From Candidatus Paenibacillus intestinavium (lineage in GTDB: Bacteria; Bacillota; Bacilli; Paenibacillales; Paenibacillaceae): a stretch of 33,416 nucleotides of DNA. Shown one piece after another: positions 13,836 to 28,388 of the stretch. Position 1 is the stretch's first letter. Each line of letters begins with the position of its first letter. Position numbers and translations under genes: made by a program. Below the pieces are notes generated by a model. It saw only the letters and a list, made by a program, of their open reading frames with translations. It did not search any database and had not been told where the DNA came from. The stretch is from the NCBI GenBank assembly GCA_019113605.1, contig DXHF01000155.1, forward strand, positions 1 to 33,416, read 5' to 3'.

Positions 13836-14849
13836 CTAATTCAGCTTATGACCGCAATTAGGACAGAAGTTAGCACCTTCGTTCTTTGTACCGCAGTTCG
13901 GGCAGAAGTTATGTTTCAAGCTGCCTTGAGAAGCATCTGGTGGCACTTGTGCTGGTTCCGAAGCTTTCGGAGCTGAAGGCTGCTGATTGGAACTTTGGTT
14001 CTGATTGGAGTTTATATTTTTCATCATTTCATTAGCCATATTCATTCCCATCATCATGCCTGCCATATCCGATGCCGCACCGCCGCCTTGGACATTGCCC
14101 GATGCAATCCCGTCTGTCATACTAACCTGTTGATACTTTTGCAAATTACCGATCATTTCATGAGAAGCTGTCTTCGTAATCATATCTTGGATTTCTTTCG
14201 GATAATTGAAGCTCATCACTTGAAATCCAGTAATCGTCATCCCATTATCCATCACTTCCATGTCCAGGTCCTCGCGAATACCTCTGGCGATATCAGAAGC
14301 ATTTGCCTGCAGATTGAACATATCCTTCCCTTCTCTGCTGATCCATTTCATAAGTAGTTGATCTAGCACCGAAGTAATTCGAAGTTTAACATCCTCCACA
14401 AGATAGCTGTTTTTAATACCTGCAATTTTATCAATAAGTGTCACATAGTCATTGACCTTAAAATTAAACGTACCATTGGCACGAATCGGCATGCCTCCTG
14501 GAAGCTGCGGTGTCGGGATAAGAACCGGATTTTGAGTCCCCCATTTGACGGTGAATTCCTTTGTGTTAACGAACAACACTTCCACACGCATTCCGCTATT
14601 AAAACCGAACTTGAAACCTTTCAAAGTAGATAAGAAAGGAATAATATCAGAATCAATATTATAATCCCCCTCATCCTCAAACAAGCCCTCTATCTTGCCG
14701 TTATTAATAAATATCGCATCTTGACCTGAGCGAATAATGAGTTTACTTCCCTTCTTAATCTCACGATTGCTCCACTTCCAAAAAATCATATCATCTCTAA
14801 ACTCTTCCCATTCCACCACATTAGAAAATTGATTTTTGAAAAATACCAT
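13836..14849 (-). CDS. ydjI: YdjI-like SPFH-domain protein with C-terminal zinc ribbon
   Basis: Last gene of a pspA-ydjG-ydjH-ydjI operon. The N-terminal SPFH/virion-core-like domain (FFKNQFSNVVEWEEFRDDM to GKDMFNLQANASDIA) is followed by a Met/Gly-rich stretch (DMAGMMMGMNMANEMM), a Gln/Ser/Pro linker and a C-terminal zinc ribbon with two CPNCG motifs. The family associates with PspA in membrane stress responses; in Bacillus subtilis YdjI is recruited to the membrane by its neighbours. The track start (14876) adds nine residues (MKSLRRAIG) absent from relatives as I recall them. The ATG at 14849 has GGAGG nine bases upstream and is preferred. Length about 337 aa. Confidence 0.9.
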   Translation of the reverse strand: MVFFKNQFSNVVEWEEFRDDMIFWKWSNREIKKGSKLIIRSGQDAIFINNGKIEGLFEDEGDYNIDSDIIPFLSTLKGFKFGFNSGMRVEVLFVNTKEFTVKWGTQNPVLIPTPQLPGGMPIRANGTFNFKVNDYVTLIDKIAGIKNSYLVEDVKLRITSVLDQLLMKWISREGKDMFNLQANASDIARGIREDLDMEVMDNGMTITGFQVMSFNYPKEIQDMITKTASHEMIGNLQKYQQVSMTDGIASGNVQGGGAASDMAGMMMGMNMANEMMKNINSNQNQSSNQQPSAPKASEPAQVPPDASQGSLKHNFCPNCGTKNEGANFCPNCGHKLN

Positions 14850-14891
14850 ACCTATAGCCCTCCTCAAACTTTTCATATTCTTTCAATACAA

Positions 14892-15686
14892 TTAAAACTT
14901 TCCTCTGCTTCCACTATGTGAATGGCCACCGCCCGTAAAGCCACCTCCACCGCCTCCACCACCACCACTACTGTTGTTCTTCTCGATTTTAGTTTTAATT
15001 ACAGTGGTTCGAATGTATTGATCCTTGCGATCCAAAATCCCTGATGTACCTGCATCTTCGTAAGTGGTCCGATTTACCGTTACTCGACCTCCAGAGTTGT
15101 AAGCCATAATACTAACGACAATCGCTCCAATTACTGCAGCTGCTCCTAACTGGAACCAGATATTAAATAAAATATTATCAGGGTTCACGCCAGGCTTGAA
15201 GCTCATATATCGATGTACTGTCGCAATATACTTTTCAAATCCGTCCGCATATGCGCCATCCGATAAATAAGGAGTAATCTTATTACGTATTTTATCCAAT
15301 CTTTTATTATCCAAATATTGCTCTGCTTTATAGAAGCCAGCTAAATATATATCCCGATTCCTCATATCCATCGTCAATATTACAGCGTTCCCATGAGGTT
15401 TATCGTACCCTGGTCCGTAATCATCATAGAAATTCTCGGTCATTTTTACGACATCTATGTTATCGGAATTGGCTGTCGTTAAAATAATAATGTCTGTTGC
15501 TCGTTCACCTCCCAATTCATTTGCAAGCTTATTCAGCGTATCATATTCTTCTTGACTAAGCAGCTCGGCTTCATCAAAGATTAAGATTTTACTTTCCGCT
15601 GATTCTGCCATCACTGTATTGACAGGTCCTACAAGCATCATAACTATGAAGAACAGAAGGATAAAAATTGTATGATGCTTCTTCAT
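14892..15686 (-). CDS. ydjH: YdjH-like membrane protein with extracytoplasmic TPM domain
   Basis: Third gene of the psp operon. The preferred start (MKKHHTIF, 15686) overlaps the ydjG stop as ATGA and has GGGGGGAGG upstream; the track ORF begins 25 codons too early. A signal peptide (TIFILLFFIVMMLVGPVNTVMA) leads into a TPM domain (KILIFDEAELLSQEEYDTL to EKYIATVHRYM). A transmembrane helix (WFQLGAAAVIGAIVVSIMAY) and a cytosolic tail follow. The tail ends in a nine-Gly run and GGGHSHSGSRGKF, as is common in TPM proteins. It probably helps anchor the SPFH protein to the membrane together with YdjG. TPM domains have been linked to membrane-protein and photosystem maintenance, but no catalytic role is assured. 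Confidence 0.88.
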   Translation of the reverse strand: MKKHHTIFILLFFIVMMLVGPVNTVMAESAESKILIFDEAELLSQEEYDTLNKLANELGGERATDIIILTTANSDNIDVVKMTENFYDDYGPGYDKPHGNAVILTMDMRNRDIYLAGFYKAEQYLDNKRLDKIRNKITPYLSDGAYADGFEKYIATVHRYMSFKPGVNPDNILFNIWFQLGAAAVIGAIVVSIMAYNSGGRVTVNRTTYEDAGTSGILDRKDQYIRTTVIKTKIEKNNSSGGGGGGGGGFTGGGHSHSGSRGKF

Positions 15687-16714
15687 AGGAATCCTCCCCC
15701 CATCATCCATGAAATGCATTTTAATGACAATAAAGAGATACCGAAAATTCCTGCGAACCATGCAAAAACCTTTGCCTTGCTAATTGGAGGCTTGCCTACT
15801 ACTTTGCCCGTCTGACCATTCATAGCAAAAGTATACTCTAATTTATTGAAGTCGTAGTGAACGACCCACACTGGAAGCAAACAATAGTCTGCATTAGTAA
15901 ATGTGTTATTAATATTTTTATTACTGAAATTAACAGTAGCATAACCTGCCACAGATGATGAAATGGATGCTTCGATATATTGCTTAATTTTATCGTTTGC
16001 TCGAGGAAGCAGCTGACCGTCATCATAACTATATTTCTCTGCAATATAACCAGCTAGATATGGTGTTTTGAAACCCTTCAGCTGTTGGTAAGGAAATGGC
16101 TCCAGCTTATCCATCAATTGATCATTCATTTTCTCCGATGCATCTACGGGCACCATCTTATAATTCAAGCGAAGCTTACGGTAAATATCAAAGTGCTGCG
16201 TTTCCGTATAACGATAATCACCGCTTACATAGGTTCTTACTTTGGTTGCACGGCCTTGTGCCTCGACTAGATTATGTAGCTCATAGAGCCAGAAAGGCAC
16301 ATATAATCCGGTAATTCCTTTAATACGATCCGCTGTAACAAATCCTTTAGGAGTGAGTAAACCCCTTTTGCACCATTTCTGAAAAGCCTTCATTGCTTCC
16401 TCTTTACTAATAGCGAACGGAATGACCATTGCAGGCGCCAGCTTACCTGTTAGCCTATCTCCCAAAACAACAGCGGAGCCGCAAAAGCTACATACGGTAG
16501 CAGCAGTTTCCGATTCAGTCATAATAACTGCACCACAGCTATTACAATGATACTCGTTAGCTTCATTCTCAGAAAATGCATCCTTTTTAAGGGGATCTGG
16601 AATTTGCTCAATATCTTCTTTTCTTCCACAACTGCTACAAGACAACGATCCAGTTGCACTATCAAAGCTCATCCCATTGCCGCAGCTTGGGCATTTATAA
16701 TCAACTACTTGCAT
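15683..16714 (-). CDS. ydjG: YdjG-like double zinc-ribbon membrane protein
   Basis: 343 aa, second gene of the psp operon. Two TFIIB-like zinc ribbons stand at the N-terminus: Cys8/Cys11 with Cys26/Cys29, and Cys57/Cys60 with Cys75/Cys78. A large alpha/beta domain follows (VIPFAISKEEAMKAFQKW to KLEYTFAMNGQTGKVVGKPP). The C-terminal helix VFAWFAGIFGISLLSLKCI is a single membrane anchor; the Bacillus protein is likewise membrane-anchored. It has 28 bp between it and pspA and a 4-bp overlap with ydjH. Likely role: membrane partner that recruits the SPFH protein and PspA under envelope stress. Confidence 0.88.
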   Translation of the reverse strand: MQVVDYKCPSCGNGMSFDSATGSLSCSSCGRKEDIEQIPDPLKKDAFSENEANEYHCNSCGAVIMTESETAATVCSFCGSAVVLGDRLTGKLAPAMVIPFAISKEEAMKAFQKWCKRGLLTPKGFVTADRIKGITGLYVPFWLYELHNLVEAQGRATKVRTYVSGDYRYTETQHFDIYRKLRLNYKMVPVDASEKMNDQLMDKLEPFPYQQLKGFKTPYLAGYIAEKYSYDDGQLLPRANDKIKQYIEASISSSVAGYATVNFSNKNINNTFTNADYCLLPVWVVHYDFNKLEYTFAMNGQTGKVVGKPPISKAKVFAWFAGIFGISLLSLKCISWMMGGGFL

Positions 16715-16742
16715 CTGCTCACCTCAATAGCTAAAGAAATTA

Positions 16743-17405
16743 TTATTGCTTATTCTCATGTTTTTCTTTCAATGCAGCTAACTCATCTTTGACACTTGTA
16801 GAGCTATCCGCTTGCGAGTCCAAATCCTTCTCGAATTGTGCGAATCGTCGGTCCAGATCATCGTTCTGATCATCTGACTGCAGCTCAGCAAGGGCTGCAG
16901 CTTTATCCACAGAAAAATTCACCTTTTCCTCCATTGCTTCGAATGAAGAATTATATTTGGATTGAGCAGCAACGGCCTGCTTCCCTTTCAACTCATTATA
17001 GCTTGCTTCCAGTTGACCTATATCAGATACAAGCTTATCCTGCATTTGCTTCATACATTCTGCGTTTTTCGAAGCTTGCTCGTATGCCAATTGTAGCTCA
17101 TCTAACCGCTCAGCACGCTTTTCTTTTTTCTCCAAAAATTTTAGTGCATCGCCCTCGTTACCCGCTTCAACGGATTTTTCTGCATATCGTTGCAGCTTCC
17201 TAATATCTGCATTACACTCATCAAGTAAAGTTTTAGATCTTCGCTCATTCAAAGCTACCGCTGCCGTTTCTGCCTTCACTGCCCCTAGATCTTGATTAGC
17301 CTTTCGCATATATTCCTCAATGACCTTCATTGGATCCTCTGCTCGATCCATTAATGAATGGATGTTAGCCTTCATAATATCATTAAATCTTGATAAAATG
17401 CCCAT
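16743..17405 (-). CDS. pspA: Phage shock protein A (PspA/IM30 family)
   Basis: A 220-aa PspA. It begins MGILSRFNDIMKANIHSLMD, the family's amphipathic membrane-binding helix, then EDPMKVIEEYMRKANQDLG. Long coiled coils rich in A, E, K and Q fill about residues 25-185, with a short charged tail. It oligomerises into ESCRT-III-like assemblies that stabilise damaged membranes. It heads the ydjGHI genes in the same order as in Bacillus subtilis, where the operon is controlled by the ECF factor SigW. I found no convincing TGAAAC-N16-CGTA promoter upstream; a weak SigA-like TTTCCA-N16-TATGAT pair precedes the gene. ATG supported by AAGGAGGG. Confidence 0.95.
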   Translation of the reverse strand: MGILSRFNDIMKANIHSLMDRAEDPMKVIEEYMRKANQDLGAVKAETAAVALNERRSKTLLDECNADIRKLQRYAEKSVEAGNEGDALKFLEKKEKRAERLDELQLAYEQASKNAECMKQMQDKLVSDIGQLEASYNELKGKQAVAAQSKYNSSFEAMEEKVNFSVDKAAALAELQSDDQNDDLDRRFAQFEKDLDSQADSSTSVKDELAALKEKHENKQ

Positions 17406-17485
17406 ATTAACTGCCCTCCTTATACTTTTAACCTAGTCTAATCATATATTACTTTATATTTGTGGAAAAGGATTCATATTCTTGA

Positions 17486-17523
17486 AACGAAAAGAACACT
17501 CATCACTTTTACTGAGTGTTCTT
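17486..17523 (-). terminator. Hairpin terminator between the sensor-like gene and pspA
   Basis: Perfect 11-bp arms (AAGAACACTCA/TGAGTGTTCTT) with a 10-base loop, followed on the minus strand by TTCGTTTC. It lies 33 bp past the upstream membrane protein stop and before pspA. The T tail is modest, so some readthrough into pspA is possible. Confidence 0.6.
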
Positions 17524-17555
17524 CACTAATTTACATTTCAAAACAAAGAGTAATT

Positions 17556-18341
17556 CTAAAGCTCTCTATAGGCTGGCTGCATCATCCCTTGAGGGACTTG
17601 ATCCTCGGGAAAATCATAATATGGCGACTGAACCGCTACTTCAGATTGCATTGGCGTCTCTGTTTCTTGATATGGCTCATCTACATACATAATTCTACGT
17701 TGAATTTGCATAAGCCCGTTCACGATACGTAGCGCGATCCAGAAGAGTACTAGACCAAAGCCTACATACAGCATATATTGCTGATTTAACGTCCAATCGA
17801 TATGGAAATAACTGAACAAGCTATGTTCCAAAATATCAACCTGGATTTCATTCATCAAAATGATATGCACAGCTGGCAATGTAATAAATCCAAGTGCTAG
17901 TGAAATTACCGTAACCATAATAACAAAAAATACGATGCTTGTTACAAATCTTAGTAGCACGAGTAGCAGATTGCGAATAAATAACTTACCGTCAAAACCT
18001 CTCACCATTTGCATAAACCAATTCTGCCTTGCTTCAGACTGCTCATTATTAGTATATGGAACAGTAGGATTCGGTAAAGCCAAAATTTGTCGTATCATAT
18101 TTTGTTCAAAATTCACTATCCCATTTAACAGCTTTGCTACCCCAAAAAACAGCGGTATTCCGATAAATATTGGAGTAAGACCGATTGATAAAACAATTCC
18201 TGTTATCGCTATTGTAAAGTAGATAATCCCTAAGGGGAGAGACAGCAAAAAATAGAGAATCGTTGCATAAGTTTTTGGATTAAAAAGCACCCAGTTCACT
18301 TTACCTGTAGACGTTTTGTCAGTCGCTTCAATTGCCTTCAT
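17556..18341 (-). CDS. Membrane protein with putative PF13796-type sensor domain
   Basis: A 261-aa integral membrane protein. Its layout matches the 'putative sensor' domain of some Gram-positive kinases: TYATILYFLLSLPLGIIYFT, then IGLTPIFIGIPLFFGVAKLL, a cytosolic loop, and further helices (VTSIVFFVIMVTVISLALGF; YMLYVGFGLVLFWIALRIV). The C-terminal tail is Gln/Pro/Glu-rich and cytosolic. No kinase domain is attached. It lies directly upstream of pspA in the same orientation, separated by a hairpin, so a link to membrane stress is plausible but unproven. AAGGAAG lies nine bases before the ATG. A 12-codon ORF (MKLKEVYEDEGN) overlaps its start in another frame. Confidence 0.7.
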   Translation of the reverse strand: MKAIEATDKTSTGKVNWVLFNPKTYATILYFLLSLPLGIIYFTIAITGIVLSIGLTPIFIGIPLFFGVAKLLNGIVNFEQNMIRQILALPNPTVPYTNNEQSEARQNWFMQMVRGFDGKLFIRNLLLVLLRFVTSIVFFVIMVTVISLALGFITLPAVHIILMNEIQVDILEHSLFSYFHIDWTLNQQYMLYVGFGLVLFWIALRIVNGLMQIQRRIMYVDEPYQETETPMQSEVAVQSPYYDFPEDQVPQGMMQPAYREL

Positions 18342-18442: not shown

Positions 18443-18460
18443 CCTAGTCTTTAGACTAGG
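18443..18460 (-). terminator. Short hairpin after the ECF41 sigma gene
   Basis: Perfect CCTAGTCT/AGACTAGG arms with a two-base centre, 12 bp past the sigma factor stop. The minus-strand tail (CTCAAAC) lacks a T run, so it may not terminate efficiently; it is the only hairpin in the gap 18342-18471. Confidence 0.4.
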
Positions 18461-18471
18461 GTTTGTCTAGT

Positions 18472-19344
18472 TCATACTAACTTATTCAATAAATGCTTCA
18501 ATTTTTCTGGGTTCCTAACAAAATACAGGTTGCGAATCGAACTCCTCTCGACATGCATAAGCACAACGGTCTCAATACCCACGTTTGTTCGGACGACAAC
18601 TCCTGTTTGGCCATTTATTTCTCTTATAGCGACTTGTATACTTCCCTCTTCAAATAGCGTCTTACGAACGAGGCCGAGAAGAAAGCGAGTGACGAGGTCA
18701 CGCGATTCAATAGGATGGACAGCGGCGACTGCTTTGCCTCCCCCATCGGAAACTAGCACAACATCTTCTGCGAGCATCGATACAACCGTATTTATGTTGT
18801 CTTGTTCGAGAGCTATAATGAATTGACGGACCCATTCCTCGCTTGCTGCTTCAACATGAATCTGCTCTTCGGTAGTAATTCCAATTTTCCCCTTTGCACG
18901 GCTTAGAACCTTACGGCAATTGACTTCGCTTTTGCCAATAATCTCTGCAATATCGCAGTATTCAAAACCGAATGCCTCCCTCAGCACAAAAACCGCCCGT
19001 TCCAAAGGAGATAACCTTTCAAGTAGCACAAGCATCGAATAAAATAATAACTCTTTACGTACAACGAATTCAAAGGATTCATCATTCGAAGTGAATATCG
19101 GTTCAGGAAGCCATTCTCCGAAATATCGTTCCCGCTTTTTACGTGCGGATTTGAGGAAATCCAAACAGCGATTCGTTGTCATTTTGCACAAATATGCTTT
19201 TGGCTCAACCAGAAGCTCAAGATCTACGTCACATATCTTCAGAAAGACGTCATGGACAATATCCTCCGCATCGGTGGACGATCCAGTCAGTTGGTAAGCA
19301 AGCGTATACAGCAAGCCTTTATACTGCTCATATAACTCTTGCAT
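18472..19344 (-). CDS. ECF41-family RNA polymerase sigma factor (SigJ-like)
   Basis: About 290 aa. Sigma region 2 covers residues of about 1-75 (YEQYKGLLYTLAYQLTGSST; DAEDIVHDVFLKI) and region 4 about 110-160 (LSPLERAVFVLREAFGFEYC). A fused C-terminal SnoaL/NTF2-like domain follows. All three ECF41 hallmarks are visible: WLPEP in the linker, DGGGK in the SnoaL domain, and NPEKL (usually NPDKL) near the C-terminus. In this family the C-terminal extension replaces a separate anti-sigma factor. The flavoprotein gene lies 41 bp upstream in the same direction, and its promoter matches the ECF41 consensus, so the operon is probably autoregulated. The track start adds eight residues; ATG 19344 is preferred. 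Confidence 0.93.
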   Translation of the reverse strand: MQELYEQYKGLLYTLAYQLTGSSTDAEDIVHDVFLKICDVDLELLVEPKAYLCKMTTNRCLDFLKSARKKRERYFGEWLPEPIFTSNDESFEFVVRKELLFYSMLVLLERLSPLERAVFVLREAFGFEYCDIAEIIGKSEVNCRKVLSRAKGKIGITTEEQIHVEAASEEWVRQFIIALEQDNINTVVSMLAEDVVLVSDGGGKAVAAVHPIESRDLVTRFLLGLVRKTLFEEGSIQVAIREINGQTGVVVRTNVGIETVVLMHVERSSIRNLYFVRNPEKLKHLLNKLV

Positions 19345-19385
19345 CGCATCACTTCCTTTCTTACACATTAATCATCTTTCTTCTA

Positions 19386-20567
19386 TTATAATAGACTTGC
19401 TGAATTCCAAGTGAATTTTCTTAGAATCCATCCGAGCTTACCTGTAAAAATAAAATCCATCCCCCAAAAGTGTGTCCATGCCATTCCTTTCTTCGGTCCC
19501 ATGCCAAAGCAGAAGAAGTCAATAAATCCCTTATGCTTGGGTGCCGGATGGCCTTCAAGATCGGCCAACACGATCTTAGCAAGCCTTGTAGCTTGAGCAA
19601 TGGCTTCCTTACACGTCTTTCCGTCCGCCTGTCCGCTGGCTGGATCTACGATCCGTGCGCAGTCTCCGATACTGTATACACCATGAGCATCGTGTACCCT
19701 GTAGCTTGGATCGACGATCAGATGTCCATCCGAGGTAATCGGTAGTCCAATATTTCGCAGATTAGGGTTGGGTAACAGCCCCAGCGTCCAGACACATAAA
19801 CCGACGGACATCATCTCACCGCTAGATAAGGTAAGTACTCCCTCTTTCTCCTGTAGTATTTTGACCTCATGGTTAACAGTAACACCACTAGTACGAAGAT
19901 AACGCTCTAGTTTCAATCCTACTTTAGGCGGACCATCTGGGAAGAGACTCTTGTTCGTGTTAATTAAATTTATCCTTACACTACTTGGGTCAAGTCCTAA
20001 TTTTTGTGCATCTTCACGTACGTAATAAGCCAGTTCGGCAGATGTCTCGATGCCACTTATGCCAGCACCAGCAACGGCAATAGTCATTAATCGTTGACGC
20101 TCTCTAGCATTTGTTTCGATAACAGCTTTCTTTAAGTTTGCACGCCACGTTTCCTTAATTTGAAGTGAGGTAGCCAAGCTCGCCAAAGCAATCCCTCCTT
20201 GAGCAAGATCAGGCTGCCGCACGACGCTACCTATCGCCACAACAATAATGTCATAGTACATCGATTTCCAATTTCCATTAACATCCTGGTAGTTCAACTT
20301 CTTGGGCTCTGATTCAATGTTCTTTACGGTAGCTTGAACGAATTCAACACCTTTAGGAAACAATTCCGTCAGAGAGACTCTAATATCTTCATTCGTGACC
20401 GCGGGCTTGAAGAGCAATACTTTACGCAAGTGATGCGGATTTTTATCAATTAGAATAAGTCGAAGAGGACGCTTGTTTGCTTTGTCCTTAAATGTATTTC
20501 GAATCGCTTTGACGGCATTAATACCAGCATATCCTCCACCGATGACTATACATGTCAACTCTTTCAT
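19386..20567 (-). CDS. NDH-2-like FAD/NAD(P) oxidoreductase, probable ECF41 target
   Basis: About 393 aa, a pyridine nucleotide-disulphide oxidoreductase of the NADH dehydrogenase-2 type. FAD motif IVIGGGYAGINAVKAI at about residues 6-21, a TIAVAGAGISGIETSAELAY NAD-binding motif in the middle, and the second FAD motif GVYSIGDCARI near the C-terminus. No active-site CxxxxC of disulphide reductases is evident. The track ORF starts 23 codons earlier, but that stretch contains the promoter itself. The ATG at 20567 (MKELTC) has AGGAG eight bases upstream. ECF41 sigma genes are usually next to a carboxymuconolactone decarboxylase, an oxidoreductase or an epimerase; this is the oxidoreductase case. 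The electron acceptor is unknown. Confidence 0.88.
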   Translation of the reverse strand: MKELTCIVIGGGYAGINAVKAIRNTFKDKANKRPLRLILIDKNPHHLRKVLLFKPAVTNEDIRVSLTELFPKGVEFVQATVKNIESEPKKLNYQDVNGNWKSMYYDIIVVAIGSVVRQPDLAQGGIALASLATSLQIKETWRANLKKAVIETNARERQRLMTIAVAGAGISGIETSAELAYYVREDAQKLGLDPSSVRINLINTNKSLFPDGPPKVGLKLERYLRTSGVTVNHEVKILQEKEGVLTLSSGEMMSVGLCVWTLGLLPNPNLRNIGLPITSDGHLIVDPSYRVHDAHGVYSIGDCARIVDPASGQADGKTCKEAIAQATRLAKIVLADLEGHPAPKHKGFIDFFCFGMGPKKGMAWTHFWGMDFIFTGKLGWILRKFTWNSASLL

Positions 20568-20598
20568 GACAACCACTCCTATTTCGTTTTGCATATAT

Positions 20599-20625
20599 GA
20601 CGAGAATAGGGGAGTTTTTGTGACA
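20599..20625 (-). promoter_or_regulatory. ECF41 promoter TGTCACA-N16-CGTC
   Basis: On the minus strand TGTCACA (20625-20619) is followed by exactly 16 bases and then CGTC (20602-20599), about 30 bases upstream of the flavoprotein ATG. This equals the published ECF41 consensus as I know it, with no mismatch. It would drive the flavoprotein and the sigma gene as one autoregulated transcript. Confidence 0.85.
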
Positions 20626-20696
20626 CAACACAACATTTATTTACGAGTAACATGCTAGATTACGAAGAAGAATGCGTTGCTGCCATTTGATACTCC

Positions 20697-20731
20697 AAGA
20701 AGTCCAAGCGCAAACTTCGCTTGGACTTCTT
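20697..20731 (-). terminator. Hairpin downstream of the TetR gene
   Basis: Perfect 14-bp arms (AAGAAGTCCAAGCG/CGCTTGGACTTCTT) with a 7-base loop, about 70 bp past the tetR stop. There is no real T run on either strand, so it may be a weak terminator or transcript-end stabiliser. Confidence 0.5.
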
Positions 20732-20801
20732 GCATACTTGATATTCGACGAACTTCTGAAGCATTTCTCCTGCTGCTTACTTCAGCGAATGGAGATCCCA
20801 C

Positions 20802-21362
20802 TTAGGTTCTATCAATCCCAGTCCGTATGTAAGGGATTACTAATTGGATAAATTGTTCCGACAGCATCTTCTGACTATCTCTTCTCCATTCTACAGAAGC
20901 GCCATAGATTCCCCAACTTAGTAGGACAGCTGTAATTTTAAGAGCTTCATCCTCTTCAGTTTTATTTTGTTTTAACAACATTTTATGAAAAATAACTTCG
21001 AGCTGTTCTCTAATAATGCGGGCAATTGTATCTTCGTAACCTCTATGGCAACGATTGGATAGTGACTTTTGAAAATCTGTTATAGCTTTGAAAATACTAA
21101 CGAAGACTTCTTCATTTAGCTCATTATTTTGGTAAAACTCATAATTCAAATTAACTAACAATACTTCTGATAATACCTTTTCCAACAAGTCATATATATC
21201 TTCGAAATGATAATAAAAAGTTGCACGATTAATCATCGCTTCTGTAGTTATATCTTTTATAGTAATATCCTTAAATTCCTTTTTCCCAGAAAGTTCAATA
21301 AAAGAATCCATAATTAGTTTGCGGGTGCGCAGAACTCGAGGGTCCGTCTTTGATTCAGTCAT
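20802..21362 (-). CDS. TetR/AcrR family repressor
   Basis: 186 aa. The N-terminal TetR helix-turn-helix is clear: RTRKLIMDSFIELSGKKEFK, DITIKDITTEAMINRATFYYHF. The C-terminal ligand domain (about residues 65-186) is all-helical and resembles the DhaS/TetR_C_33-like group, but the ligand cannot be read. It is transcribed away from the DsbA-like/YdhR-like pair across 141 bp, the usual layout for a local repressor that controls its divergent neighbour and itself. AGGAGG lies just before the ATG. Confidence 0.9.
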   Translation of the reverse strand: MTESKTDPRVLRTRKLIMDSFIELSGKKEFKDITIKDITTEAMINRATFYYHFEDIYDLLEKVLSEVLLVNLNYEFYQNNELNEEVFVSIFKAITDFQKSLSNRCHRGYEDTIARIIREQLEVIFHKMLLKQNKTEEDEALKITAVLLSWGIYGASVEWRRDSQKMLSEQFIQLVIPYIRTGIDRT

Positions 21363-21398
21363 TTTGTTAACCTCCTACTTTTCAAACAAATTCTTAAA

Positions 21399-21424
21399 TG
21401 TGTTGTATAAACGACAAATCCACA
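21399..21424. promoter_or_regulatory. Candidate operator in the tetR-dsbA divergent region
   Basis: An imperfect dyad: TGTGTTGT, seven bases, then ACAA-ATC-CACA. It is the best inverted repeat between the divergent genes and is of TetR operator size. The match is incomplete in AT-rich DNA, so this is tentative. Confidence 0.3.
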
Positions 21425-21503
21425 CAATTATTGGTGTTGTTAATAATTATTATGATCTAAAATTCAATTACAGGCAAATTAAATTAGAAATGAGGACATT
21501 ATA

Positions 21504-22433
21504 ATGACGAACAATAATAATATGGTATGTGATCTAAAAACAGGTGTATGTGGAGTAGCTGGAGAAGAGGATATGGAGGTTATTGATTTTAATCAACCTC
21601 AAAAAATGGTGAATCTTTATTATGTGACTGACCCTATTTGTTCACATTGCTGGGCACTTGAACCTGAGCTTCGTCGTTTTGTAGAGCAATACGGAGGTTA
21701 TGTTAAATTTCATACAGTTATGGGTGGTTTGCTAGAAAAATGGCATGACGGACCAATCGATCCTGCTAATGGAATTAATAAACCAGCCGATGTGGCTGTT
21801 CACTGGAGAGAAGTTGGACAATATTCGAGAATGCCAATTGACGGTACTTTAATGATTGATAATCCAGTACAATCTTCCTACCCTCCCTCTCGTGTATTTA
21901 AGGTGATTCAAAAAAATCATACTGATGTAGCAGCATCCGAATATTTACGCCGTTCAAGAGAAGCACTTTTCGCATTTAATCAAAATATTTCAGATAAAAC
22001 CGTTATGATTGAAATCGTAAATAAACTCGGCCTTGATGGAGAAGCTATTGTTAATGAAGCTGAACAACCCCTCGGTCTACAATTGCTACATGAAGATTTT
22101 GATCTAGTTAGAAGCTTGGGTGTTAGTGGCTTCCCGACTATTGTTATGACCAATGAAGAAAACAAAGGTGTAAAAATTGTTGGCGCCCGTTCGTTGGAAT
22201 ACTATGTCAACGGATTGAAAAAAGTTCTAAATCTCGATGAATTACAACCGAAACCAATCCCTTCCCTTTCTAGCTTGCTTGAAAAAGAAAAACTGCTTTT
22301 CTCCAAAGAAATTGAAGTAATGTACGATGTTGAACAAGCAAATGTTAAATCTTTTATTGAACAGGAACTTTCAACAGATCGTTATGAAGTGAACGAAATT
22401 TTAGGAGAATTGTATTTTACTACTACTAAATAA
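21504..22433 (+). CDS. DsbA/FrnE-like thioredoxin-fold protein (SpxH/YjbH-related)
   Basis: 309 aa. A DsbA-like thioredoxin fold begins with NLYYVTDPICSHCWALEPEL, active-site C46-S-H-C49. The helical insert (FKVIQKNHTDVAASEYLRRS) and the cis-Pro loop GVSGFPTIV are both present. A short N-terminal extension holds a second Cys pair (C9 and C16, in CDLKTGVCG). No signal peptide, so it is cytosolic, as in the ClpXP adaptor SpxH/YjbH and FrnE groups. It forms a pair with the YdhR-like gene 19 bp downstream and is divergent from TetR. A role in thiol or electrophile stress is likely; the specific partner is unknown. GAGG eight bases before the ATG supports the start. Confidence 0.85.
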   Translation: MTNNNNMVCDLKTGVCGVAGEEDMEVIDFNQPQKMVNLYYVTDPICSHCWALEPELRRFVEQYGGYVKFHTVMGGLLEKWHDGPIDPANGINKPADVAVHWREVGQYSRMPIDGTLMIDNPVQSSYPPSRVFKVIQKNHTDVAASEYLRRSREALFAFNQNISDKTVMIEIVNKLGLDGEAIVNEAEQPLGLQLLHEDFDLVRSLGVSGFPTIVMTNEENKGVKIVGARSLEYYVNGLKKVLNLDELQPKPIPSLSSLLEKEKLLFSKEIEVMYDVEQANVKSFIEQELSTDRYEVNEILGELYFTTTK

Positions 22434-22452
22434 ACGAAGGTGAGTGACCATC

Positions 22453-22758
22453 ATGGCGTACGTATTACAAGTAGATTTTAAAATGAATGGACCGTTCGGA
22501 GATGAAATGGCAGAGGAGTTTTCAGATTTAGCGAAAAGTATCAACGACGAGGATGGATTTATGTGGAAAATCTGGACAGAAAGTCCCGAAACAAATGAGG
22601 CCGGTGGAATTTATATGTTCGAAACAAAAGAAACTGCTGAAAAATATAACGTTATGCACACTAGCAGATTAGCTGGTTTTGGCATAACAGATGTCAATGC
22701 AAAAATCTTTTCTATCAATTCCAAGCTTACTGAAATCAATAAAGGACCTGTAATGTAA
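22453..22758 (+). CDS. YdhR-like putative mono-oxygenase (dimeric alpha-beta barrel)
   Basis: 101 aa from the ATG at 22453, the length of the YdhR family. Features: MAYVLQVDFKMNGPFGDEMA, then DEDGFMWKIWTESPETNEAG and GGIYMFETKETAEKYNVMH, as in YdhR and related small ferredoxin-like-fold proteins. These are proposed cofactor-free oxygenases acting on aromatic or quinone-like compounds. The track begins at a GTG three codons earlier; AAGGTGAG is better spaced for 22453. It follows the DsbA-like gene by 19 bp, so the two form an operon, probably under the divergent TetR. Confidence 0.88.
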   Translation: MAYVLQVDFKMNGPFGDEMAEEFSDLAKSINDEDGFMWKIWTESPETNEAGGIYMFETKETAEKYNVMHTSRLAGFGITDVNAKIFSINSKLTEINKGPVM

Positions 22759-26683: not shown

Positions 26684-27832
26684 TTAATTTAATTCGATAA
26701 CTCTACCAGTGATGACACCATTCTCATCCCTAGAAAATTGAAGAGCTCTGGAAGTTTGATCTTCTACACTAAAATGGACACTATCAGAACCCCCTGTTTG
26801 ACCTTCCTCAAATATCATTTCAGGAGAAACCGCAGTTTTGAAACCATCATACTCATAGAGAATTCTTCCTTCGTCATCATAGGTTACTTCTTTGACGGAT
26901 TCTGGTATGACCTTACCATCAGGTAATTTTCCCTTCAATTCTTCTACTCTGTCTAGCATTTCCACTTCTGCATCATCATCAGTGACATCCGAATTAGCCG
27001 AACTGTCAGTAGATGGTTCCTTCAGTAGCTCTTGAAGATAGGCCTCGGCTTTGACTGGGTCAGCTTTAGCTTTGTCTAGTGGTAAGTCGAACAGAAGTGA
27101 GGCTCCCTTATAGTCCGTTCTTGGACTAACTTCACCTGAACTTTCGTTATAAGCAAATGCGTCATTACTAAAGAATGTACTACCACTACTGATTGCTAGG
27201 TATATGCCTCGATCAGCGAATATCTCCATTCCATCACATTCTATAAGTCTATACATAATTCCTTCCAAAACAATTTCACTATAACCACCATTCATCGATG
27301 CGATGTTCACTTGCCAAGGCTTCTGCCCTTTAATAAGTGGTGACACAAAGAACGAATCTTTTCCATATTCCGGATCACTTTTCTTTGGCATGAGGCTACC
27401 ATCCTGTCTTGCTATGGATACAACAGCATAAGTCCTATCCGGATTGATACTTTGCCCAGGGTTAGTTAACTCAGTAAGTCCCGCACCTGAGACAATTCCG
27501 TGCAATGTAAAGTTATAGTCCCCCGAAGCAATCGTTTCATTGACTTCGATAGAGTCACTGCTTTCAAACACTTCGGCTAGTACCTTGTCTCCCAGTTGTT
27601 CAGCAATTTGCTTGGAGCTAAAAAGCTGTGTAGCCGCATAAGCAGTTACGGACATAATAAGCATCAATACAGCAACCAATACACCTATGGAAATTCGCTT
27701 TCTGTGTATGCTATTCATTTTATTTGTCTCCTTAAACTGATTGATGATTTTTTGGTTCAATTCCTCGTCCGGCTCCACTTCCGAAGCAAGAACTTGCTTA
27801 AGTAGTTGATCCAACTTCTCGGTTTTATTCAT
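26684..27832 (-). CDS. Membrane anti-sigma factor partner of the ECF sigma factor
   Basis: About 382 aa. The N-terminal cytosolic part (MNKTEKLDQLLKQVLASEVE) has the form of an anti-sigma domain without a zinc motif. One transmembrane helix follows (ISIGVLVAVLMLIMSVTAYA), then an extracytoplasmic domain of about 310 residues resembling DUF4179 proteins. The C-terminal part is acidic with a degenerate repeat (EGRILYEYDGFKTAVSP). Its start overlaps the sigma gene by 8 bp; GGAGG lies nine bases before ATG 27832, inside the sigma coding sequence. The track uses a TTG three codons earlier. It probably holds the sigma factor at the membrane until an envelope signal is sensed. Confidence 0.82.
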   Translation of the reverse strand: MNKTEKLDQLLKQVLASEVEPDEELNQKIINQFKETNKMNSIHRKRISIGVLVAVLMLIMSVTAYAATQLFSSKQIAEQLGDKVLAEVFESSDSIEVNETIASGDYNFTLHGIVSGAGLTELTNPGQSINPDRTYAVVSIARQDGSLMPKKSDPEYGKDSFFVSPLIKGQKPWQVNIASMNGGYSEIVLEGIMYRLIECDGMEIFADRGIYLAISSGSTFFSNDAFAYNESSGEVSPRTDYKGASLLFDLPLDKAKADPVKAEAYLQELLKEPSTDSSANSDVTDDDAEVEMLDRVEELKGKLPDGKVIPESVKEVTYDDEGRILYEYDGFKTAVSPEMIFEEGQTGGSDSVHFSVEDQTSRALQFSRDENGVITGRVIELN

Positions 27833-28352
27833 GGAACTCAACCTCCAATATCCCTTTCATTGCCTTTCTAGCCTTGTAAAGCCTGCTTTTGACTGTGCCC
27901 GCTGGTATATGTAGCGCCGAAGCTATCTCATCTATGGACATTTCTACCGTATAATACATATATAGCGGAATCTTAAACTTATCATCCAGCGTAGCCGCCG
28001 CTGCTACTAGTGTCGATCGAAGCTCATGGGACAGTACAATATCTTCCAGCGTTGCCTCTCCTTTTGGCAAGAAGGTCTCATTCACAGCTTCATTGAGCTC
28101 AGTTATGGGTGCAATTCTCTGCCTCCAGGCAAATTTCCTACGTTTGTTTCGGCTCAATTTTAGTGCAATTGAGATGAGAAATGCTTTAGGATTTTGGTTT
28201 GGGTCCATTTTATGACGAATTTCCATTGCTTTAAGGAAAGTATCCTGATAAAGATCATCCGTATCCGCCTTATTTCCAGCTAGCTTATAGCAAAATCCAT
28301 AAATTGTTTTACCATGTAGCTTTATAAGATCTTTTAATTCTTCGATATCCAA
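27825..28352 (-). CDS. ECF RNA polymerase sigma factor
   Basis: About 175 aa with sigma region 2 (GKTIYGFCYKLAGNKADTDD, LYQDTFLKAMEI) and region 4 (YYTVEMSIDEIASALHIPAG, TVKSRLYKARKAM). The track starts at 28382, but the predicted promoter's -10 ends at 28389, which would leave no leader. The TTG at 28352, seven bases after AGAGAGGAG, is preferred. Its 3' end overlaps the anti-sigma gene. The upstream promoter looks ECF-dependent, so positive autoregulation is expected. Confidence 0.9.
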   Translation of the reverse strand: MDIEELKDLIKLHGKTIYGFCYKLAGNKADTDDLYQDTFLKAMEIRHKMDPNQNPKAFLISIALKLSRNKRRKFAWRQRIAPITELNEAVNETFLPKGEATLEDIVLSHELRSTLVAAAATLDDKFKIPLYMYYTVEMSIDEIASALHIPAGTVKSRLYKARKAMKGILEVEFHE

Positions 28353-28388
28353 GGAACTACTCCTCTCTGAATGGCCATTCACCTATAT

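Follow-up and report, generated by a model that had tools for sequence, protein, structure and literature searches.

The ECF41 group of sigma factors was characterised by Wecke et al. (2012; PMC3426412), who defined its promoter, the regulatory domain fused to the C terminus of the sigma factor and a regulon of one operon. The neighbouring genes, termed COE, encode carboxymuconolactone decarboxylases (CMDs), oxidoreductases or epimerases, with Pyr_redox and Pyr_redox_2 named among the oxidoreductase domains; the promoter precedes the COE gene in 97 of 107 COE-ECF41 loci, and the ECF gene in none (PMC3426412). The same study demonstrated control of the sigma factor by its extension in B. licheniformis and R. 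sphaeroides, and reported that two ECF41 systems showed no phenotype. In other members of the group, partial truncation of the extension activates the sigma factor and full removal inactivates it. According to a review (PMC8999054), the SnoaL-like extension inhibits the sigma factor through contact with the linker, and activation probably involves a conformational change. A literature search found no paper pairing ECF41 with an FAD-dependent oxidoreductase by that name, whilst for ECF41 and Paenibacillus it returned only a review, whose Paenibacillus entry concerns another group.

The stretch of 33,416 nt from Candidatus Paenibacillus intestinavium analysed here (hereafter the window) contains a locus for which an initial reading of the DNA, the original prediction, had proposed an ECF41 promoter in front of an operon encoding a flavoprotein resembling type II NADH dehydrogenase (NDH-2) and an ECF41 sigma factor. 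The interval it gave, 18472-20625, covers the promoter and both genes:

20619-20625, minus strand: -35 element TGTCACA, ECF41-type; exact match, found at the same place in 41 flavoprotein-type loci and 29 further flavoprotein hits
20599-20602, minus strand: -10 element CGTC, 16 bases 3' of the -35 element; read from the sequence, with CGTC or CGTT in most relatives
20576-20580, minus strand: likely ribosome-binding site AGGAG of the flavoprotein gene; read directly
19386-20567, minus strand: flavoprotein gene, 393 aa, Pyr_redox_2 with an NDH-2-like fold; Pfam PF07992 (9.4e-30), alignment of 33 relatives and AlphaFold model
18472-19344, minus strand: ECF41 sigma factor gene, 290 aa, sigma2, sigma4 and C-terminal SnoaL-like extension; Pfam, NCBIfam and SigJ alignment
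19099-19113, minus strand: WLPEP, in the sigma2-sigma4 linker; translation of the sigma ORF and relatives
18733-18747, minus strand: DGGGK, in the C-terminal extension; translation of the sigma ORF and relatives
18499-18513, minus strand: NPEKL, near the C terminus; translation of the sigma ORF and relatives

The identification of the downstream gene as an ECF41 sigma factor with a fused regulatory domain was confirmed by family models, by alignment with SigJ and by motifs. Pfam detects sigma2 and sigma4 domains in the ORF, and residues 12 or 13 to 265 align with the structure of M. tuberculosis SigJ (PDB 5xe7; 4.8e-40), through the C-terminal domain; SigJ, compared by protein only, shares the ECF41 domain layout. 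The score against the NCBIfam SigJ-type model NF007214 is 299.8 bits, over the cut-off of 271, and that against the related model TIGR02957 is 313.4 bits, around 10 below its cut-off of 323.25. All three predicted motifs, WLPEP, DGGGK and NPEKL, are present in the sigma ORF; among 22 relatives DGGGK is invariant, and WLPEP and NP(D/E)KL nearly so. The features of the group, namely sigma2 and sigma4 with a SnoaL-like extension, WLPEP in the linker with DGGGK/R and NP(D/E)KL in the extension, a target promoter and a COE neighbour with no anti-sigma gene, are found together. The AlphaFold model of the sigma factor is of low confidence (pLDDT 71.7). The sigma ORF, about 41 bases beyond that of the flavoprotein, is open from 19368; homologues suggest that the ATG at 19344 is the more likely start. 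A perfect inverted repeat, CCTAGTCTTTAGACTAGG (18443-18460), lies just 3' of the stop codon and is a possible weak terminator.

The flavoprotein gene likely starts at the ATG at 20567, which is preceded by AGGAG and at which homologues begin. The longest ORF, from an ATG at 20636, was rejected: its start would lie 5' of the promoter, and the alignment with homologues begins only at 20567. The promoter itself conforms to the prediction: read on the minus strand from 20625 to 20599, the sequence is TGTCACAAAAACTCCCCTATTCTCGTC, or TGTCACA-AAAACTCCCCTATTCT-CGTC, which has no mismatch to TGTCACA-N16-CGTC, the consensus published for ECF41 across all phyla; the -10 element most common in the host's own clade is CGTT, such that one mismatch to this consensus is the norm there. 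The distance from the promoter to the likely start codon is 31 bases. This is the sole exact match with a 16-base spacer both in the window and in the 4.57 Mb draft genome, and an average of 0.0025 exact matches is expected per dinucleotide-shuffled window.

We considered whether the match might be coincidental, with a housekeeping promoter driving the operon. The match comes from a single genome, which holds around 20 matches with one mismatch, and a looser pattern (spacer of 15-17, CGTY) found six in the whole genome, against four for a reversed control pattern. As matches to loosened motifs in the genome-wide regulon search were about as numerous as those of the reversed-pattern control, or fewer, motif presence alone is weak evidence, and no further targets are claimed. 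The argument for the putative promoter is instead carried by position and conservation: the expectation per window is far below one, and placement and spacing are conserved in dozens of loci. Sigma-70-like sites occur at chance frequency, and the best of them (20572-20545) runs into the beginning of the coding sequence. Coincidence was thus rejected as extremely improbable. A long inverted repeat, AAGAAGTCCAAGCG...CGCTTGGACTTCTT, at 20701-20732 (approximate, located by eye), separates the TetR gene from the flavoprotein promoter and probably marks where the TetR transcript ends.

Comparison was made with the 80 closest ECF41 loci in the species collection, mostly from Paenibacillus, Cohnella, Brevibacillus and Bacillaceae. 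A flavoprotein gene lies directly upstream of the sigma factor gene, in the same orientation, in 41 of these; 31 have a nearby CMD, a label based on a CGFC motif in the sequence and the published ECF41 context, eight have neither, and none of the 80 has both. In all 41 flavoprotein loci the motif precedes the flavoprotein gene, with zero to two mismatches and a spacer of 16 (15 in one case), and in most cases at a distance of 28-36 bases to the start codon; the measurement for one locus (L079), taken from a gene remnant, is unreliable. None of the 41 has the motif before the sigma factor gene, the best matches there having three to five mismatches, as does background. Random 150 bp stretches contain a match with two or fewer mismatches in around 3% of trials, some of which land on real promoters. 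In loci without the flavoprotein the motif is mostly found before the sigma factor gene itself, as in 28 of the 31 CMD-type loci (zero to two mismatches). A search with the flavoprotein recovered the window and 29 further loci in relatives, from genomes partly shared with the set of 80, and every one of the 29 has the motif with zero to two mismatches and a spacer of 16.

The arrangement in the window is therefore that of the >COE>ECF> loci of PMC3426412: TGTCACA-n16-CGTC stands in front of the COE gene but not of the ECF gene, the linker contains WLPEP, the C-terminal motifs are conserved, there is no anti-sigma gene, and Pyr_redox and Pyr_redox_2 belong to the COE class. Nothing essential differs, although the two systems tested in that study had a CMD rather than a flavoprotein. 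One of them, Ecf41Bli with ydfG in B. licheniformis, is likewise a Firmicute ECF41 system with a neighbouring redox-type gene and the same type of promoter, but its target is a CMD; in our tree, which was built without Ecf41Bli, CMD-linked and flavoprotein-linked sigma factors are split by a fully supported branch. The original prediction was right that a flavoprotein stands in the place of the common CMD; such a partner is not unusual, given that Pyr_redox_2 is listed in PMC3426412 and that 41 of the 80 nearest loci share the partner. As promoter, layout and class of partner were all described in 2012, the locus is an unambiguous, if ordinary, further example, a clean addition to a widespread group of sigma factors.

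All 42 flavoprotein-linked sigma factors lie on one side of a single branch of the sigma factor tree, with support of 100/100, and the type of partner changes once on this tree, as against 27 times in shuffles. Hence the choice between flavoprotein and CMD tracks the phylogeny of the sigma factor and, judged by this tree, the flavoprotein is an old, clade-wide alternative confined to one branch. In the sigma factor tree, a locus of 42% GC from a record titled Arthrobacter beigongshangensis (L072) is nested among Paenibacillus relatives; this is probably contamination or a mislabelled assembly, and otherwise a recent transfer.

The gene 3' of the sigma factor gene differs among loci, which is consistent with an operon of two genes. 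Seven of the 29 flavoprotein hits have no sigma factor gene within 1.5 kb; in three cases (G010, G040 and G014) the flavoprotein and a sigma factor of the flavoprotein clade are encoded 34-42 kb apart, each with an ECF41 motif of its own. A sigma factor gene without a motif inside the operon, but with one where it stands apart, is the pattern expected under autoregulation, and the split loci thus represent natural support for it. These comparisons support a single autoregulated two-gene operon, and the self-contained circuit originally proposed is backed by motif conservation, the split loci and the sigma factor tree. Gene content, domain layout, the motif and its position, their conservation and the co-inheritance of motif, enzyme and sigma factor can all be read directly from the sequences.

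The description of the flavoprotein as NDH-2-like holds for its fold. The AlphaFold model has a pLDDT of 91.5, its closest structures being YjlD and other NDH-2 enzymes (TM 0.80-0.85), and the nearest solved relatives are NDH-2 enzymes both by profile and by fold. With YjlD and the enzymes of C. thermarum (4nwz) and S. aureus (5na1) it shares the fold of two dinucleotide-binding domains, the GxGxxG motifs, the Glu of GxGxxGxE (S. aureus E172) and the Asp of GDCA; both motifs and these two residues are invariant among 33 flavoprotein sequences (G10-G15, G167-E174 and D302). This is consistent with a genuine type II NADH:quinone oxidoreductase that serves the respiratory chain and is switched on through ECF41 when respiration is under stress. 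However, identity to these enzymes is 20-25%, and the features associated with quinone differ. The NDH-2 quinone-binding motif AQxAxQ and its variants AQxAxR and APxAxQ, defined in PMC5299459, where the motif and two main variants cover 87% of NDH-2s, are absent from the alignment of the flavoprotein. In alignments with two NDH-2 structures CKEAIA (residues 319-324) stands in its place; residues C319 and K320 occur in 32 of the 33 relatives and E321 in every one, so that a CKE-type motif replaces AQxAxQ in 32. Phe53, which aligns with His51 of NDH-2, is Phe in 33/33 relatives. The model also predicts a single terminal helix (376-391) as opposed to the two C-terminal amphipathic membrane helices of NDH-2, and relatives possess other, distant NDH-2-like genes as well. 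A respiratory role thus seems unlikely: given the absent quinone-binding motif, the NDH-2-like label is limited to the fold.

The locus is very probably a typical >COE>ECF> ECF41 system, in which an autoregulated flavoprotein-sigma operon is served by a sigma factor under the control of its own extension, as proposed. A single transcript, beginning just after the CGTC at 20599, would encode the flavoprotein, the oxidoreductase 'O' of COE, and the sigma factor. The latter would be kept at low activity by its C-terminal SnoaL-like extension until a small ligand or redox cue lifted this hold; RNA polymerase with ECF41 would then transcribe the operon, giving more flavoenzyme and, through positive autoregulation, more sigma factor. 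Transcription from the motif and control by the extension have been shown by others in relatives, and we infer both here by analogy. The regulon would be essentially this one operon, and the signal is presumed to be a small ligand. The flavoenzyme, with FAD and probably NAD(P)H, would reduce an acceptor; this is probably some small molecule and not a quinone bound at the standard NDH-2 site.

Alternatively, the flavoprotein may itself take part in sensing, its activity or product setting the state of the SnoaL-like domain, such that it would be a feedback element beside being an output. The tight co-inheritance of the enzyme with the sigma factor clade, the shared motif even when the two genes are separated, and the suggestion in a review (PMC8999054) that small ligands act on the extension are all consistent with this; yet co-expression of the COE protein YdfG left ECF41 activity unchanged in B. 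licheniformis, though YdfG is a CMD. We regard a sensing role as doubtful, and prefer the extension-controlled operon with the flavoprotein as its output. A wider proposal, which is speculative and to a similar degree improbable, is that ECF41-linked flavoproteins form a distinct subfamily of reductases, with an NDH-2 fold and TCKEA in a rebuilt quinone site, which serves a single old ECF41 clade found mainly in Bacillota. What these enzymes consume or produce might then be the ligand that the SnoaL-like domain reads, which would close a feedback loop through metabolism. A conserved enzyme that lacks the NDH-2 quinone motif offers a concrete starting point for biochemical work on the missing ECF41 signal.

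Pfam analysis identified the operon's upstream neighbour as a TetR regulator and its downstream neighbour as a Sensor-domain protein, with no anti-sigma gene adjoining the flavoprotein-sigma pair. Downstream of the sigma factor gene, a cluster of PspA/IM30, TPM-domain, SPFH band-7 and Sensor-domain proteins (13836-18341, minus strand) resembles an envelope-stress cluster. On the other side of the operon (20802-22758), the gene for a TetR regulator runs divergently to those for a DsbA/thioredoxin-5-like protein and a YdhR-type monooxygenase. The window also encodes a second, ordinary ECF sigma factor with sigma2 and sigma4 only (27825-28382, minus strand); a 385 aa ORF without a Pfam match (26684-27841, minus strand) overlaps this gene on its 3' side, and is a candidate anti-sigma partner for it.
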